Source: an uncultured Gammaproteobacteria bacterium (lineage in GTDB: Bacteria; Pseudomonadota; Gammaproteobacteria; Nitrosococcales; Methylophagaceae). Taken from it: a DNA stretch of 58,392 bases. The notes beneath the pieces are model-generated. The model was given only the letters and a program-made list of their open reading frames with translations. It was not told the origin of the DNA and did not search any database. Where the stretch lies: assembly GCA_905479985.1 (NCBI GenBank), contig CAJQOM010000026.1:1-58392 (forward strand). Direction: 5' to 3'. Both the position numbers and the translations under genes were made by a program. Of the stretch, positions 8,172 to 50,324 are shown piece after piece; positions within the stretch are counted from its first letter, which is position 1, and the number at the start of each line of letters is the position of its first letter.

Positions 8172-8610
8172 TCGTTGGTTCTTTTTTAATCATACTTTGT
8201 AGTTGCTGATCAAATTGGCCATATTTATCGTTATCTTGATCTGAGGGTTGTTGACCTAACACATGCAAGGTTTGAATTTGATGTGGGGTGACACCGACAA
8301 GAATGCGTTCGCCACTGACCTCGATTAAGACAGCACGCTCACGTGTGCCTAATGACAAACCGGCGATCATTTTGATTTCGCCATTGGCCGAGGCTTGAAA
8401 CTTTCCTGTCCGCCTGATTAACCACGCTAAGGTGAAAATTAAGGCGAGAATTAAGACTAAGCCAATGGTGGTTTCGAGCAATGCACCTGATGCAATAGCA
8501 GGCGATGCCGTGGTTTTAGCGGCGTCTATTTTCGCTTCTTCAGCAGCAAAACATTGTGTGGTAAAGCTTGATAAGAGGATGCTTACCGTCGAAAGCCAGA
8601 GTTTGTTCAT
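8164..8610 (-). CDS. fliO: Flagellar export accessory protein FliO
   Basis: Membrane protein that helps assemble the FliPQR complex. The 148 residues begin with a signal-like segment ([22 protein letters not shown]). A single membrane helix at about 47-66 ([17 protein letters not shown]) is followed by a cytoplasmic domain with [20 protein letters not shown], typical of FliO/FliZ. Family members are poorly conserved, so position between fliN and fliP carries weight. The ATG shares one base with the fliN stop. Confidence 0.92.
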
Positions 8611-9053
8611 TATCTGAGCTTCTTAATCCGTTCGTCAGCACTGATGACATCAGTGAGACGAATACCAAATTTGTCATTCACGACAACGACTTCACCATGG
8701 GCTATCAGGGTATCGTTGACTAAAACATCCATCGCTTCACCGGCAAGGCGATCTAATTCAATCACTGAGCCTTGGCTAAGCTGGAGTAGATTGCGAATGC
8801 TGATCTTAGTTCGGCCAATTTCCATTGAAATGGTGACGGGCAATTCTAGGACCATATCCAGATTCATGTCTGAGCTTGCAACTGATTTAGAAGAGTCATT
8901 GAGTTGTTCAACTGGCACTGCTTCCGCTTCTGAGTCAGCTTGTTCCTCGAGTGCGGCTGCCCATGGGTCTTCTTCCGCTTCTTCGCTTGCACCGCCAGCT
9001 TCTTCTAGCACTGCATCCCAATTTTCTTCTGGCTTTTCTGTTTCTTCACTCAT
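8610..9053 (-). CDS. fliN: Flagellar switch protein FliN
   Basis: C-ring protein forming the lower rim of the rotor switch. The 147 residues have an acidic, disordered N-terminus (about 1-60, rich in Glu and Ala) and a C-terminal SpoA domain with LDMVLELPVTISMEIGRTKI, LLQLSQGSVIELDRLAGE and a VNDKFGIRLTDVIS end. It overlaps fliM by 4 bases, suggesting coupled translation in the proportion needed for the ring. Confidence 0.96.
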   Translation of the reverse strand: MSEETEKPEENWDAVLEEAGGASEEAEEDPWAAALEEQADSEAEAVPVEQLNDSSKSVASSDMNLDMVLELPVTISMEIGRTKISIRNLLQLSQGSVIELDRLAGEAMDVLVNDTLIAHGEVVVVNDKFGIRLTDVISADERIKKLR

Positions 9054-10075
9054 GATTGTGTACTCTTAATAAGATTAAATTGAGGGGCCACCTCTTTGGG
9101 GTGTTCGATCAATTTGATGATTTTTAATGCGGCTTTATTATTATGTTCGCCAAAGGTGGACTGGAACACGGGAATATCTTCGGCAAATGTGGTGACAGTT
9201 TCAGGCATGTCGATAGGGATGATGTCGCCGGGCTTTAAGTCTAGAACTTGTTGTAAGTTCATGGTGGAATCAGTGAGCGGTGCGGATAAAGTAACGTCTG
9301 CGGCCATAATTTCATCACGCATGGCTTTTGGCCAACGGCCATCATCAGTCGAACGATCACTTTGTAAGCCGGTATCAAGTAATTCTCGAATGGGTTCTAA
9401 TAAAGAATAAGGCAGGGTGATATGGAGATCGCCACTACCACCATCCAGTTCGATATTAAAAGTGGAGACGACGACGACTTCACTAGGGCTGACGATATTG
9501 GCAAATTGTGGATTGACTTCATGGTGAATGAATTCAAAGTCCATTTCCATGACGGGGGCCCAAGCTTCTGAGAGATCTTTGAAGCATATTTCTAGCACCA
9601 TATTAATGACGCGTAATTCTGTTGAGGTGAATTCACGGCCCTCGATACGGGCTTGAAAGCGACCTTCGCCACCGAAATAGTTATCCAAAACGCAGAAGAC
9701 TAATTTGGGTTCAAAAACGATAAGCCCAGTTCCCCTGAGTGGGTGCATATGAATCATATTCAAACTTGTTGGGACGAATAGAGTATGAATGTATTCTGAG
9801 AATTTCATGATTTGCACGCTGCCTGATGAAATCTCGGCGGTGCGGCGTAACATATTAAAGAGACTAATCCTTAGCTGGCGGGCAAAGCGTTCATTGACCA
9901 TTTCCAAGGTGGGCATGCGGCCACGGATAATACGATCTTCGTTGCCGAAATCGTAACTGCGAGTGGATTCTGGTGATGCGGAATCGCTATCAGTATCGGT
10001 TTCGATGTCGCCGCCATCCATGCCATTGAGCAGTGCATCTACTTCATCTTGGGAGAGTATGTCTTGTGCTGCCAT
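9050..10075 (-). CDS. fliM: Flagellar switch protein FliM
   Basis: Switch protein that receives CheY-P and contacts FliG. The N-terminus carries the CheY-binding/initiation motif ILSQDEVDALLNGM at residues 5-18. The middle CheC-like domain contains HPLRGTGLIVFEPKLVF, and the C-terminal SpoA domain has LNLQQVLDLKPGDII-like NLQQVLDLKPGDIIPI. The 341 residues are normal length. It starts 3 bases after fliL ends. Confidence 0.97.
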   Translation of the reverse strand: MAAQDILSQDEVDALLNGMDGGDIETDTDSDSASPESTRSYDFGNEDRIIRGRMPTLEMVNERFARQLRISLFNMLRRTAEISSGSVQIMKFSEYIHTLFVPTSLNMIHMHPLRGTGLIVFEPKLVFCVLDNYFGGEGRFQARIEGREFTSTELRVINMVLEICFKDLSEAWAPVMEMDFEFIHHEVNPQFANIVSPSEVVVVSTFNIELDGGSGDLHITLPYSLLEPIRELLDTGLQSDRSTDDGRWPKAMRDEIMAADVTLSAPLTDSTMNLQQVLDLKPGDIIPIDMPETVTTFAEDIPVFQSTFGEHNNKAALKIIKLIEHPKEVAPQFNLIKSTQS

Positions 10076-47411: not shown

Positions 47412-47915
47412 TCAGGTAGTTTCTAGCTGTAGTAGTTTTTGCTTAGTGTCCAGGCCGCCGGCATAACCGACGAGTTTGCCATTGTGGCCGATAATGCGGT
47501 GGCAAGGAATAATAATCGAGAGGGCATTAGCTGCGTTAGCATTAGCGACAGCACGGACAGCTTTGTCTTTACCTAATGTCTGAGCAAGTTGTAAATAGCT
47601 TGTAGTCTGGCCATATGGAATACTTTGTAGGGTTTGCCAAACCTGTGTTTGGAAAGCGGTGCCTGCTAAGACAAGGGGCAGGTCGAAATCGGTTCTTTGA
47701 CCTTTAAAGTATTCATCGAGCTGTTTGCTTGTGGTGGTTAATAAGGCATTGTTGCCTTGCTTAAACGATCCATTCAGGTGTTTAAAGAGTCGTCTTTCGA
47801 CAGCGGCTTTATTCTTTTTATCACGCCAATTACACAGACACAATTTGTCATTGAATGTGCCGAGGATAAGGTCTCCAACCGGCGATTGATAAAGTTGGGT
47901 GGTGATGTGTGTCAT
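47412..47915 (-). CDS. ogt: Methylated-DNA--protein-cysteine methyltransferase
   Basis: Suicide repair of O6-methylguanine. 167 residues; active-site PCHR with Cys138, preceded by FQTQVWQTLQSIPYGQTTSY and followed by LVGYAGGLDTKQKLLQLE. Starts 33 bases after the last of four paralogous unknown genes on the same strand. Confidence 0.95.
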   Translation of the reverse strand: MTHITTQLYQSPVGDLILGTFNDKLCLCNWRDKKNKAAVERRLFKHLNGSFKQGNNALLTTTSKQLDEYFKGQRTDFDLPLVLAGTAFQTQVWQTLQSIPYGQTTSYLQLAQTLGKDKAVRAVANANAANALSIIIPCHRIIGHNGKLVGYAGGLDTKQKLLQLETT

Positions 47916-47948: not shown

Positions 47949-48368
47949 TCAGATGATGTCAAACATCACTTGGTGGCCTGCTTTAAAATGTTTTTTGGCG
48001 TAATCTGAAAGCCAGCTTAAATCGAAGGGTTTGCTCTTAAGCACTTTTGATTTTGCGTGGTAATAGGCCAGCATGAAAATTTCATCTTCAGTTTGTAACC
48101 ATTTTTCGGTTTTGGTTTGGACTGCGACTGACTCGCGTCTGAAGAGCTCTTCAAAGACGGCATCAACAATGAGGTTAAAACTACGTTCGTTAATTTTGTT
48201 AGCAATGGCGTAACCGCGGCAGGTGCCAAGTACGGAGCCCGTGATTTCGTGGCTAGACTGCATGTCAATGGGGACATTGCCGAGCTCATCATTGAACGGC
48301 TTAAAGCAATTTGAAAAGGCGTTAAGTAAGTAGCGTTTATGCTGATTGTTTTTAAATAATTTGAACAT
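47949..48368 (-). CDS. Unknown tandem-paralog protein, copy 1
   Basis: 139 residues; fourth and last in transcription order of the four-gene array. Begins MFKLFKNNQHKRY. Invariant cysteines at 21 (AFSNC) and 50 (LGTCRGYA), 29 apart, then FEELFR, TEKWL, AYYHAKS and FDLSWLSDYAKKHF. All four genes share these positions. Soluble, mostly helical, no signal. Two close cysteines might bind metal or form a disulphide; this is a guess. Most basic of the four. Confidence 0.78.
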   Translation of the reverse strand: MFKLFKNNQHKRYLLNAFSNCFKPFNDELGNVPIDMQSSHEITGSVLGTCRGYAIANKINERSFNLIVDAVFEELFRRESVAVQTKTEKWLQTEDEIFMLAYYHAKSKVLKSKPFDLSWLSDYAKKHFKAGHQVMFDII

Positions 48369-48381
48369 GAGTCTCTATGTG

Positions 48382-48783
48382 TTATGTAGAATGACGTACC
48401 TCAATAGCGGCATCAAAATGTGTCTTTGCATAAGCCTGTAGCCAAGTTAGATCAATATCGAGCGAGGCTTTCTCTTTTGCTTGGTAATATGATTCCATAA
48501 ATACGGTATCGGCTTCCGTTAACCAAGTCTCAGTTCTGGTTTGAACGCCAATAGAATCTTGGCGATAAACTTCTTCGAACACAGCATCGACAATGCTGGC
48601 AAAGGCTTTTTCTGACAACTCTGCAGCCTCAGCATACCCGCGACATGTCCCTAGCATTGCAGCAGTGATATATCTGTCTTTTTGCATTGGGATAGGGACG
48701 TTATCGAAGATACTTTTGAGCGGCTGAAAGCAGTTTGAAAATGCTTGCTTTAATTTATTCTTGTGCATAATTACTTCAAACAT
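48382..48783 (-). CDS. Unknown tandem-paralog protein, copy 2
   Basis: 133 residues from the ATG at 48783 (MFEVIMHKNK), which has GAAGG 7 bases upstream; the frame is open a further 9 codons. Cys18 (AFSNC) and Cys47 (LGTCRGYA). Then VFEEVYR, TRTETWL, SYYQAKEKA and IDLTWLQAYAKTHF. Closest by eye to copies 1 and 3. Confidence 0.78.
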   Translation of the reverse strand: MFEVIMHKNKLKQAFSNCFQPLKSIFDNVPIPMQKDRYITAAMLGTCRGYAEAAELSEKAFASIVDAVFEEVYRQDSIGVQTRTETWLTEADTVFMESYYQAKEKASLDIDLTWLQAYAKTHFDAAIEVRHST

Positions 48784-48817
48784 AACGTTGCCTTCTTTGA
48801 TAGGTATCAATATTGGT

Positions 48818-49219
48818 TTACAGGTGTTGTCCTAGTGTACTGGCTTTTTCAAAATGCGTCTGTAAATATTGACCGAGCCAGTCTAAATTTAGTTCAACTT
48901 CTGCGACAGATTTAGCGTGATAATAGGCTGTCATAAAGTCAGTGTTTTCTTCATTCAACCACGTCTCGGCTTTAGTTTGCATAGGGAGAAATTCACTGCG
49001 AAAAACCTCTTCAAAGACGTTGTCGATAAGCATATTAACGATATTTTCTTTCAATTTTTGCTTGATGGCATAACCTCGGCAAGTACCGAGGATGGCACCG
49101 GAGATATACGGGTTTTGGCGCATGTCTGGGTGGACGTTGCCCAGATCACTTCTTAATGGATCTAAGCAATCAGAAAATGCTTGTAAGAGGATGGGTTTGT
49201 GTATGGCTGCTGTGAACAT
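48818..49219 (-). CDS. Unknown tandem-paralog protein, copy 3
   Basis: 133 residues, MFTAAIHKPI at the start. Cys18 (AFSDC) and Cys47 (LGTCRGYA), the same spacing. VFEEVFR, KAETWL, AYYHAKS and LNLDWLGQYLQTHF follow. Nine bases after copy 4. No strong ribosome site, so translation may be coupled to copy 4. Confidence 0.78.
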   Translation of the reverse strand: MFTAAIHKPILLQAFSDCLDPLRSDLGNVHPDMRQNPYISGAILGTCRGYAIKQKLKENIVNMLIDNVFEEVFRSEFLPMQTKAETWLNEENTDFMTAYYHAKSVAEVELNLDWLGQYLQTHFEKASTLGQHL

Positions 49220-49228
49220 CTTAGGTAC

Positions 49229-49633
49229 TTATAACATCAGGCCTGTAGCCGGCTTAAAGTTCTCTTTGGCAAAATCGGTTAACCACGTTAAGTCAAGATC
49301 TGCCGTGGTTTTAGCTTCGGCAGCGGCGTAGGCTTGGTTAAAGGCGTCGTTATTGTCGTTTTGCCAAGCACTTACGCGGTCTTGGACATTGATTGATTCT
49401 AGCCGGTAGACCTCTTCAAAAGCAGCGTCAGAAATGAGGGCAATATCACTCTGTTTTGTCACGTTTTGTGAGCGGGCATAGGTTTCACAGACGGCGAGAA
49501 TGGATGCATTAATGGCTGGATCGGTTTGCATGGGAATAGGGACATTGCCTAATTCGTCTATGAGAGGGTAAAAGCAAGTTTCTAATGCGATTTCCAATTT
49601 TCTTTTGTGTTTGCCAAGACCTAATCCAAACAT
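49229..49633 (-). CDS. Unknown tandem-paralog protein, copy 4 (first in operon)
   Basis: 134 residues from the ATG at 49633 (MFGLGLGKHK), chosen because all copies begin Met-Phe; an ATG at 49645 is possible. Cysteines in ALETC and LAVC, again 29 apart, but GTCRGYA has become AVCETYA, and the segment after FEEVYR is changed (SAWQNDNN). LDLTWLTDFAKENF is kept. This is the most divergent copy. A possible -10 TATATT (minus strand, 49673-49678) lies upstream. Confidence 0.76.
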   Translation of the reverse strand: MFGLGLGKHKRKLEIALETCFYPLIDELGNVPIPMQTDPAINASILAVCETYARSQNVTKQSDIALISDAAFEEVYRLESINVQDRVSAWQNDNNDAFNQAYAAAEAKTTADLDLTWLTDFAKENFKPATGLML

Positions 49634-49736
49634 ATGCGTTCTCATCCAATAAAGCGGTTATTAATTACTGGGAATATACACCAGTCATCACAGAATAAAA
49701 GTGTTTTATGTTGGCGGTGCTTTGTTTGGGTGGATT

Positions 49737-50153
49737 TTAGTTGTCGAACATTTTATTGCGTAGGGATTTGGTTTTACTACGATGGTTTTTATTTTCTAAC
49801 CGTTTTTTAATGGCGCTTTTTTTTGGCTTGGTGATGCGTCGTATTTTTTTGACTTTGGTGTGCGTGAGGATGAGCTGTTGTAGCCGATTTAAGGCATCTT
49901 GTCGGTTTTTTTCTTGGGTGCGCCATTGCTGCGCTTTGATAACGATGCACCCTTGTTTGGTAATGCGAGTGTCTGATGAGGCCAATAAGCGCTGTTTGAT
50001 GTGTTCTGGCAGTGAGGCGTTTTTGATATCGAACCGGAGGTGAATGGCCGAGGAAACTTTATTGACATTTTGACCACCGGCGCCTTGTGCACGAATCGCG
50101 GTCAAGTTGATTTCATGATCTGGGATGATGATGTTTTGAGTGATGGTTAGCAC
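49737..50153 (-). CDS. arfB: Alternative ribosome-rescue factor ArfB
   Basis: Peptidyl-tRNA hydrolase that frees ribosomes stalled on broken mRNA. From the GTG at 50153 the protein is 138 residues and aligns with E. coli ArfB at its start (LTITQNIIIPDHEINLTAIR). The catalytic GGQ is at 26-28 in RAQGAGGQNVNKVSSAIHLR. The tail is basic (KPKKSAIKKRLENKNHRSK), needed to enter the empty mRNA channel. AAGGA about 7 bases before the GTG supports this start over the ATG at 50177. Confidence 0.93.
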   Translation of the reverse strand: MLTITQNIIIPDHEINLTAIRAQGAGGQNVNKVSSAIHLRFDIKNASLPEHIKQRLLASSDTRITKQGCIVIKAQQWRTQEKNRQDALNRLQQLILTHTKVKKIRRITKPKKSAIKKRLENKNHRSKTKSLRNKMFDN

Positions 50154-50324
50154 AGGTTTTCCTTGTGACGGCGTCACATTAAGTGTGGTTTATTTTACGC
50201 TCAATGCGGGGAGAGTTGTGTACGTGGTTGTGCTTAGTATTTGGGATGAGGTAATGTCATACGTCAGACGGGTTTTAGCTCTATAATAAGCCTTAGATTA
50301 CGTTTAAACATGTTAGGAAATATG

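Follow-up and report, generated by a model that had tools for sequence, protein, structure and literature searches.

Dimethyl sulfide (DMS) and methanethiol are volatile sulfur compounds of major importance in the sea. The described system closest to the genes studied here is the MtoX (SBP56) module with its SCO1/MauG maturation genes (PMC5739008; PMC6548844). In a 58,392-nucleotide stretch of DNA from an uncultured gammaproteobacterium of the Methylophagaceae (contig CAJQOM010000026.1 of assembly GCA_905479985.1; this whole stretch is called the window below) lies a tandem array of four genes for small proteins, whose family has almost the same distribution over the Methylophagaceae genomes as the MtoX module and lies, in Methylophaga thiooxydans, on the same stretch of the chromosome. 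Neither the small proteins nor C1, a methyltransferase-like protein found with them, resembles any of the described parts of that module; MtoX is thought to be periplasmic, whereas no signal peptide is evident in the small proteins when they are judged by eye.

Two other systems invite comparison. The Trm112-type methyltransferase activators may serve as a works-like analogy, since in both cases a small protein would assist one that resembles a methyltransferase; Trm112 is, however, a zinc-binding protein of another fold, no homology between it and the small proteins was found, and the small family has several paralogs. The sulfur carriers of the TusA/DsrE type share with the small proteins their size, conserved cysteines and a sulfur-oxidation context, but these carriers have a mixed alpha/beta fold with a CPxP motif or the DsrE active-site cysteine. 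Membership of this group was considered and rejected, as the model of the small protein consists of helices only and its Cys20 lies outside a CPxP context.

We propose that the products of the four genes are accessory proteins, all-helical and probably cytosolic, that work with C1 in a module for the oxidation of methylated sulfur (methanethiol or DMS), and we give this reading a probability of about 0.55. It is built on the observed family with its old paralogs, on a phyletic link that ties this family to C1 and (within the Methylophagaceae) to SBP56/MtoX, on its adjacency to C1 in family f165, and on two gene clusters in Methylophaga; from these we infer a mechanism. The small proteins would bind C1 as subunits or activators, and would either activate it or bring the substrate to it; Cys20, usually together with Cys49, would contact an intermediate in the form of a thiol, persulfide or methylthiol; and the four paralogs would be specialised subunits of one assembly, or would serve different substrates. 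The parts of this proposal differ in strength: a link of the family to a methylated-sulfur pathway in the Methylophagaceae is likely, a physical partnership of the small proteins with C1 is a tentative suggestion that we rate somewhat below even, and a reactive cysteine in the small proteins is doubtful.

In the window's own order the small family is present in 12 of 63 genomes, all of them in family f1, which we take to be the Methylophagaceae. A single copy is found in 7 of the 19 genomes of the order that holds family f45 and in all six genomes of family f165, and a class sample yielded the family in 6 of 369 genomes. A phylum sample gave 2 of 398, namely the window's genome and G513, whose match (E 0.007, inside a 511-residue frame) is taken as chance. 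C1, a protein of 375-400 residues with methyltransferase-like parts, is present in 23 of 25 carriers of the small family. Every one of the 10 genomes with C1 among the 63 of the order sample is a carrier, and the other two carriers, in which C1 was not found, have genomes of 81% and 67% completeness. All 6 carriers of the class sample have C1 (11 of 369 genomes), as do all 7 in the order of f45 (14 of 19 genomes). The two genes are neighbors in family f165, where a 375-residue C1 starts 8-12 bases after the stop of the small gene in six of six genomes; locus L042 is assigned here to G807 on the agreement of coordinates.

Within the Methylophagaceae the presence of the family also coincides with that of SBP56, which was found in 12 of 57 genomes: 11 of the 12 carriers against 1 of the 45 others (Fisher p 8e-10, a value that ignores shared descent). 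Among the 37 Methylophagaceae genomes that are at least 90% complete the patterns of the family, C1 and SBP56 are identical, with all three in 8 genomes and none in the other 29 (8/0/0/29). A four-marker tree of 51 genomes (without G025) places the carriers in one clade of seven and at four isolated positions, with five parsimony changes of presence (gains or losses); two of these places are less certain (the neighbor of G015, G005, is 73% complete, and G002 86%). Both C1 and SBP56 are present at all five. Outside this family, SBP56 was found in both genomes tested from f165 and in both genomes with C1 alone that were tested outside f45 (G079 and G182). Membership of SBP56 is no proof of methanethiol oxidase activity; SBP56 proteins of the Methylophagaceae have been detected in North Sea metaproteomes (PMC8371827).

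The two Methylophaga clusters bring these genes together physically. A single contig of M. thiooxydans carries C1 (240368-241555), a pair of small genes (252103-252939) and mtoX (256608-257825) within 17.5 kb, and the same set of genes in M. sulfidovorans falls within 30.4 kb. The mtoX gene of M. thiooxydans, MDMS009_211, is reported at 256503-257906 of scaffold 1104571000268 (PMC6548844), and all 7 genes scanned in its operon are of the types published for mto-cluster 1 (the gene at the sulP position lay outside the scan). Of the 24 genomes in genus g3, just those of these two species (G427 and G425) carry the family, and mtoX is likewise reported from them alone among six Methylophaga (PMC6548844).

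The window's genome also has a confirmed soxB, and its SBP56 (MtoX-family) gene lies on contig C19. In the window's clade C1 adjoins SoxC-like, SoxD-like and SoxY genes, named from their Pfam domains. SoxY itself fails as a marker, being present in 56 of the 63 genomes of the order. A short, high-scoring form of SoxY, picked afterwards from frame lengths and scores, resembles the family pattern in its distribution over nine genomes (G000, G002, G003, G011, G012, G015, G018, G022 and G025); neither of the Methylophaga carriers has one listed.

A number of observations weigh against the proposed role. The counts of joint occurrence had no unrelated accessory gene as a control, and there are two mismatches in the Methylophagaceae: G025 (82% complete) has SBP56 and the short SoxY without the family or C1, and G010 (81% complete) has the family without SBP56. 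The association with SBP56 is not seen in f45: there SBP56 is present in 6 of the 7 carriers and in 10 of the 12 genomes that lack the family, and in 11 of 14 genomes with C1 and all 5 without. Physical linkage is not general, as the array, C1 and SBP56 of the window's genome are on separate contigs (C26, the short contig C42 and C19), and in G018 about 400 kb separate the array from C1 and mtoX. C1 does not need the small family, since it occurs without it in 12 genomes (5 in the class sample and 7 in f45, one of which, G816, has a broken C1). All methyltransferase matches of C1 in Pfam and NCBIfam are below cut-off, and its AlphaFold model, from a six-row alignment, is poor (predicted local distance difference test, pLDDT, 52). 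A Foldseek search with this poor model returned mostly methyltransferases (best E 0.002), and the S-adenosylmethionine-binding motif I appears poorly conserved by eye. In the literature, the part of the M. thiooxydans study cited here found no methyltransferase candidate to be induced on DMS, and it cites a suggestion that the DMS enzyme is cobalamin-dependent, for which C1 shows no evidence (PMC6548844).

A 132-residue gene directly before C1 in f40 (the two genes together at L127:6742-8264 and L128:7011-8543) was suspected to be a divergent member of the small family, and is a Dabb-domain protein (scanned in L128); L127 also has an ATP-sulfurylase gene nearby. Beside C1 in M. thiooxydans (L154:6363-18065) are genes for a fatty-acid-desaturase-like protein, globins, GST, a ferredoxin-type reductase and nitronate monooxygenase, a vWA and NorQ-type AAA pair, and a FadL-like porin recognized by its similarity to L119:155-1483; similar clusters are present in L155 and L159. 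An alternative candidate for the enzyme that begins DMS metabolism is a desaturase-like membrane hydroxylase together with its reductase. A desaturase and a flavin reductase are reported as induced on DMS (PMC6548844), and might be the same as the L154 genes.

The sequence-only reading of the window had described the array as an unrecognised family, and the searches bear this out. None of the four window copies reaches a curated Pfam-A or NCBIfam cut-off, and two distant members of the family also fall short of those of NCBIfam. In a Pfam scan of 40 members, judged by E-value only, weak matches to Sf6_terminase (8 of 40, best E 0.0064), ATLF (3 of 40, best E 0.0005) and Tai4 were seen and are taken as chance; a search of PHROGs with 14 members gave nothing better than E 0.018, and a 40-row profile run against PDB sequences gave nothing below E 0.33. 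The AlphaFold model from the 40-row alignment is all-helical, without strands, and is of high confidence (pLDDT 93; predicted template modelling score 0.88). Its best Foldseek match in the PDB has an E-value of 3.0, and its best VIA match is a spider-silk domain (Z 4.0, root-mean-square deviation 5.7 over 93 residues); the model has no significant PDB or viral fold match, which does not in itself show that the fold is new. Viral contigs gave 18 pattern matches, none confirmed as relatives, and plasmids gave no relative with copy 1 as the only query. Text searches of the open-licence literature of PMC brought up no paper that describes these proteins in its title or the opening of its abstract, a weak result, as such searches are blind to unnamed proteins.

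Table 1. Features of the small-protein array and its immediate surroundings, in window coordinates.
Feature	Position	Strand	Remarks
ogt-like O6-methylguanine-DNA methyltransferase	47412..47915	-	follows copy 4 by 33 bases; adjacency not constant
Copy 4	47949..48368	-	139 residues; no whole gene in four three-copy relatives, remnant in one
Copy 3	48382..48783	-	133 residues; start ATG 48783 set by homologs
Copy 2	48818..49219	-	133 residues; from open reading frame, alignment and gene tree
Copy 1 (first translated)	49229..49633	-	134 residues; Cys20 and Cys49; probably the ancestral type; start fixed by homologs
Conserved upstream element ACTGGTGTATATT	49673..49685	-	resembles an extended -10; some 40 bases ahead of copy 1
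RF-1 domain protein	49737..50177	-	precedes copy 1; of the genus's 8 other loci, 6 gave a match

The array spans 47949-49633 of the window. Four same-strand paralogs of 133-139 residues had been read there from the letters alone, and they are confirmed by the list of open reading frames, the alignment and BLASTP (E at most 5e-25). Comparison with homologs moves the start of copy 3 from TTG 48810 to ATG 48783 and that of copy 1 from 49645 to ATG 49633, leaving intergenic gaps of 9, 34 and 13 bases. The four copies are 35-51% identical in pairs, with BLASTP E-values among themselves of 5e-25 to 3e-48, far beyond chance; in the alignment the others are 41-50% identical to the first, and the first-translated copy is, as had been noted, the most divergent of the array.

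Two invariant cysteines had been noted in the array, which holds for the array and not for the whole family. Both are present in all four window copies, 29 residues apart, and Cys20 is kept in all 47 aligned members of the wider family, but Cys49 in only 44 of 47, so that this second residue is not universal, a further point against the mechanism proposed above. The three members that lack it are f165 sequences, with threonine at this position and a cysteine one helical turn later. Phe72, Glu73, Glu74 and Arg77 are each kept in 46 or 47 of the 47. The conservation of the cysteines is what might be expected of a sulfur carrier, in which Cys20 (and Cys49) would hold sulfane sulfur as a persulfide and pass it between sulfide or methanethiol oxidation and the steps of Sox or persulfide dioxygenase, much like TusA or DsrE in other systems, C1 being a mere neighbor in the pathway. 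The association with SBP56 in the Methylophagaceae and the clustering with Sox, SQR and persulfide-dioxygenase-type genes also fit this explanation. We nevertheless consider it unlikely: the helical model without a CPxP motif is unlike TusA, the cysteine pair would also fit a structural role, and the tie of the family to C1 is stronger than that to Sox, with the short canonical-type SoxY missing from the list for both Methylophaga carriers.

Copy number varies among related genomes: four copies are found in five Methylophagaceae genomes, three in four and two in three, and more distant carriers have one. In the gene tree each array position of the window's genus forms its own clade (supports 98/94, 100/97, 100/99 and 100/100); the duplications therefore predate the sampled species and their order has been kept. 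Judged by this tree, the array is not the product of recent amplification. Of the two roles suggested earlier for the copies, a simple dosage effect of recent amplification is thus not supported, as the array positions are old clades, while specialisation is consistent with one clade per position in the same order across genomes. Copies 2-4 form a clade that excludes copy 1 (support 99/96), and copy 1 is the best window match of L041, L079 and L080 (copy 2 is that of L042); copy 1 is therefore probably the ancestral type.

Some copies show signs of decay or divergence. Beside the three-copy array of G011 lies a remnant (G011:C2:85655-85771) that covers profile positions 94-131 (38 positions) with one stop, and is probably a decayed copy 4. 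The single-copy small gene of G224 (L079, around 8400-9900), one of the seven carriers in the order of f45, has an internal stop, is near a transposase-type winged-helix open reading frame, and is possibly a decaying copy. Copy 4 of G016 (L034:4992-5405) has a long branch of 0.72 and lysine at two near-invariant positions; this genome is 67% complete and C1 was not found in it. In G219 a probable sensor-domain protein of the DACNG type (L080:8031-8753) is encoded a short way ahead of the small gene; no gene of the other f165 loci clustered with it by similarity.

The patchy, multi-place distribution of the family and its clustering in Methylophaga could also be read as the trace of a horizontally moving organosulfur island, of which the small genes would be cargo that travels by linkage and has no biochemical role there. 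For copies 1-3 the ratio of nonsynonymous to synonymous substitution rates (dN/dS) is low, at 0.035-0.121 with dS of 1.1-3.2 (5 of 7 ortholog comparisons with two relatives; the remaining pair of comparisons, in which copies 1 and 4 were set against L031, had saturated dS, and copy 4 is thus without a value). This argues against mere cargo, as do the retention of the family alongside C1 even where it is unlinked to C1 or mtoX (G018 and G084) and the adjacency to C1 in the distant family f165, and we regard this explanation as improbable.

In the immediate neighborhood, the RF-1 domain protein upstream of copy 1 is presumably ArfB-like. The conserved element ACTGGTGTATATT before copy 1 is whole in four of nine upstream regions, matches at 12 of 13 bases in one and at 11 of 13 in two, and is absent in two; it is a possible promoter of the array, and went unreported by a consensus promoter scan. 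Inspected by eye, the upstream regions of the array and of C1 and a single mtoX region showed no motif in common. A link of the array to alkylation damage or stress had been suggested from the adjacent ogt, and proves weak. Among nine loci of the genus (the window, L031, L032, L033, L035, L036, L081, L082 and L084), the window is the only one where ogt comes immediately after the array; one or two open reading frames separate the two in L032, L033, L082 and L084, and ogt was unmatched within the stretch read in L031, L035, L036 and L081. The ogt of the window is 53% identical to the one that ends the mtoX cluster of M. thiooxydans (L164:13928-14434), about 13 kb from the small-gene pair, and in view of this related gene any closeness of ogt may have its cause in methyl-sulfur chemistry. 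A general stress or repair function, in which the array would respond to alkylation or formaldehyde stress of methylotrophs, is very improbable: the ogt next to it and the relative in the mtoX cluster would fit, but ogt is so rarely the next gene, the family is missing from 51 of the order's 63 genomes, and the cluster ogt of M. thiooxydans is reported as equally expressed on DMS and methanol (PMC6548844).

The reading of the small proteins as accessory proteins of C1 bears on a gap in methylotrophic DMS metabolism. The primary DMS enzyme of M. thiooxydans was reported as unidentified in 2019 (PMC6548844), the DMS methyltransferase gene as still unidentified as of 2022 (PMC9563715), and the part of a 2026 review of DMS cycling cited here mentions no DMS methyltransferase gene (PMC13360808). 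It is conceivable, if a long shot, that C1 and the small cysteine proteins are this missing methyl-transfer system, the 'DMS methyltransferase' of Methylophaga; C1 would then move a methyl group from DMS or handle methanethiol, and the small proteins would be its specialised, cysteine-bearing subunits. As C1 is below every methyltransferase cut-off tried, it would have escaped recognition by the models used here, which would explain how such an enzyme had been missed. Two nameless families that closely track the methanethiol oxidase family in the Methylophagaceae are concrete candidates for the missing parts of DMS metabolism.
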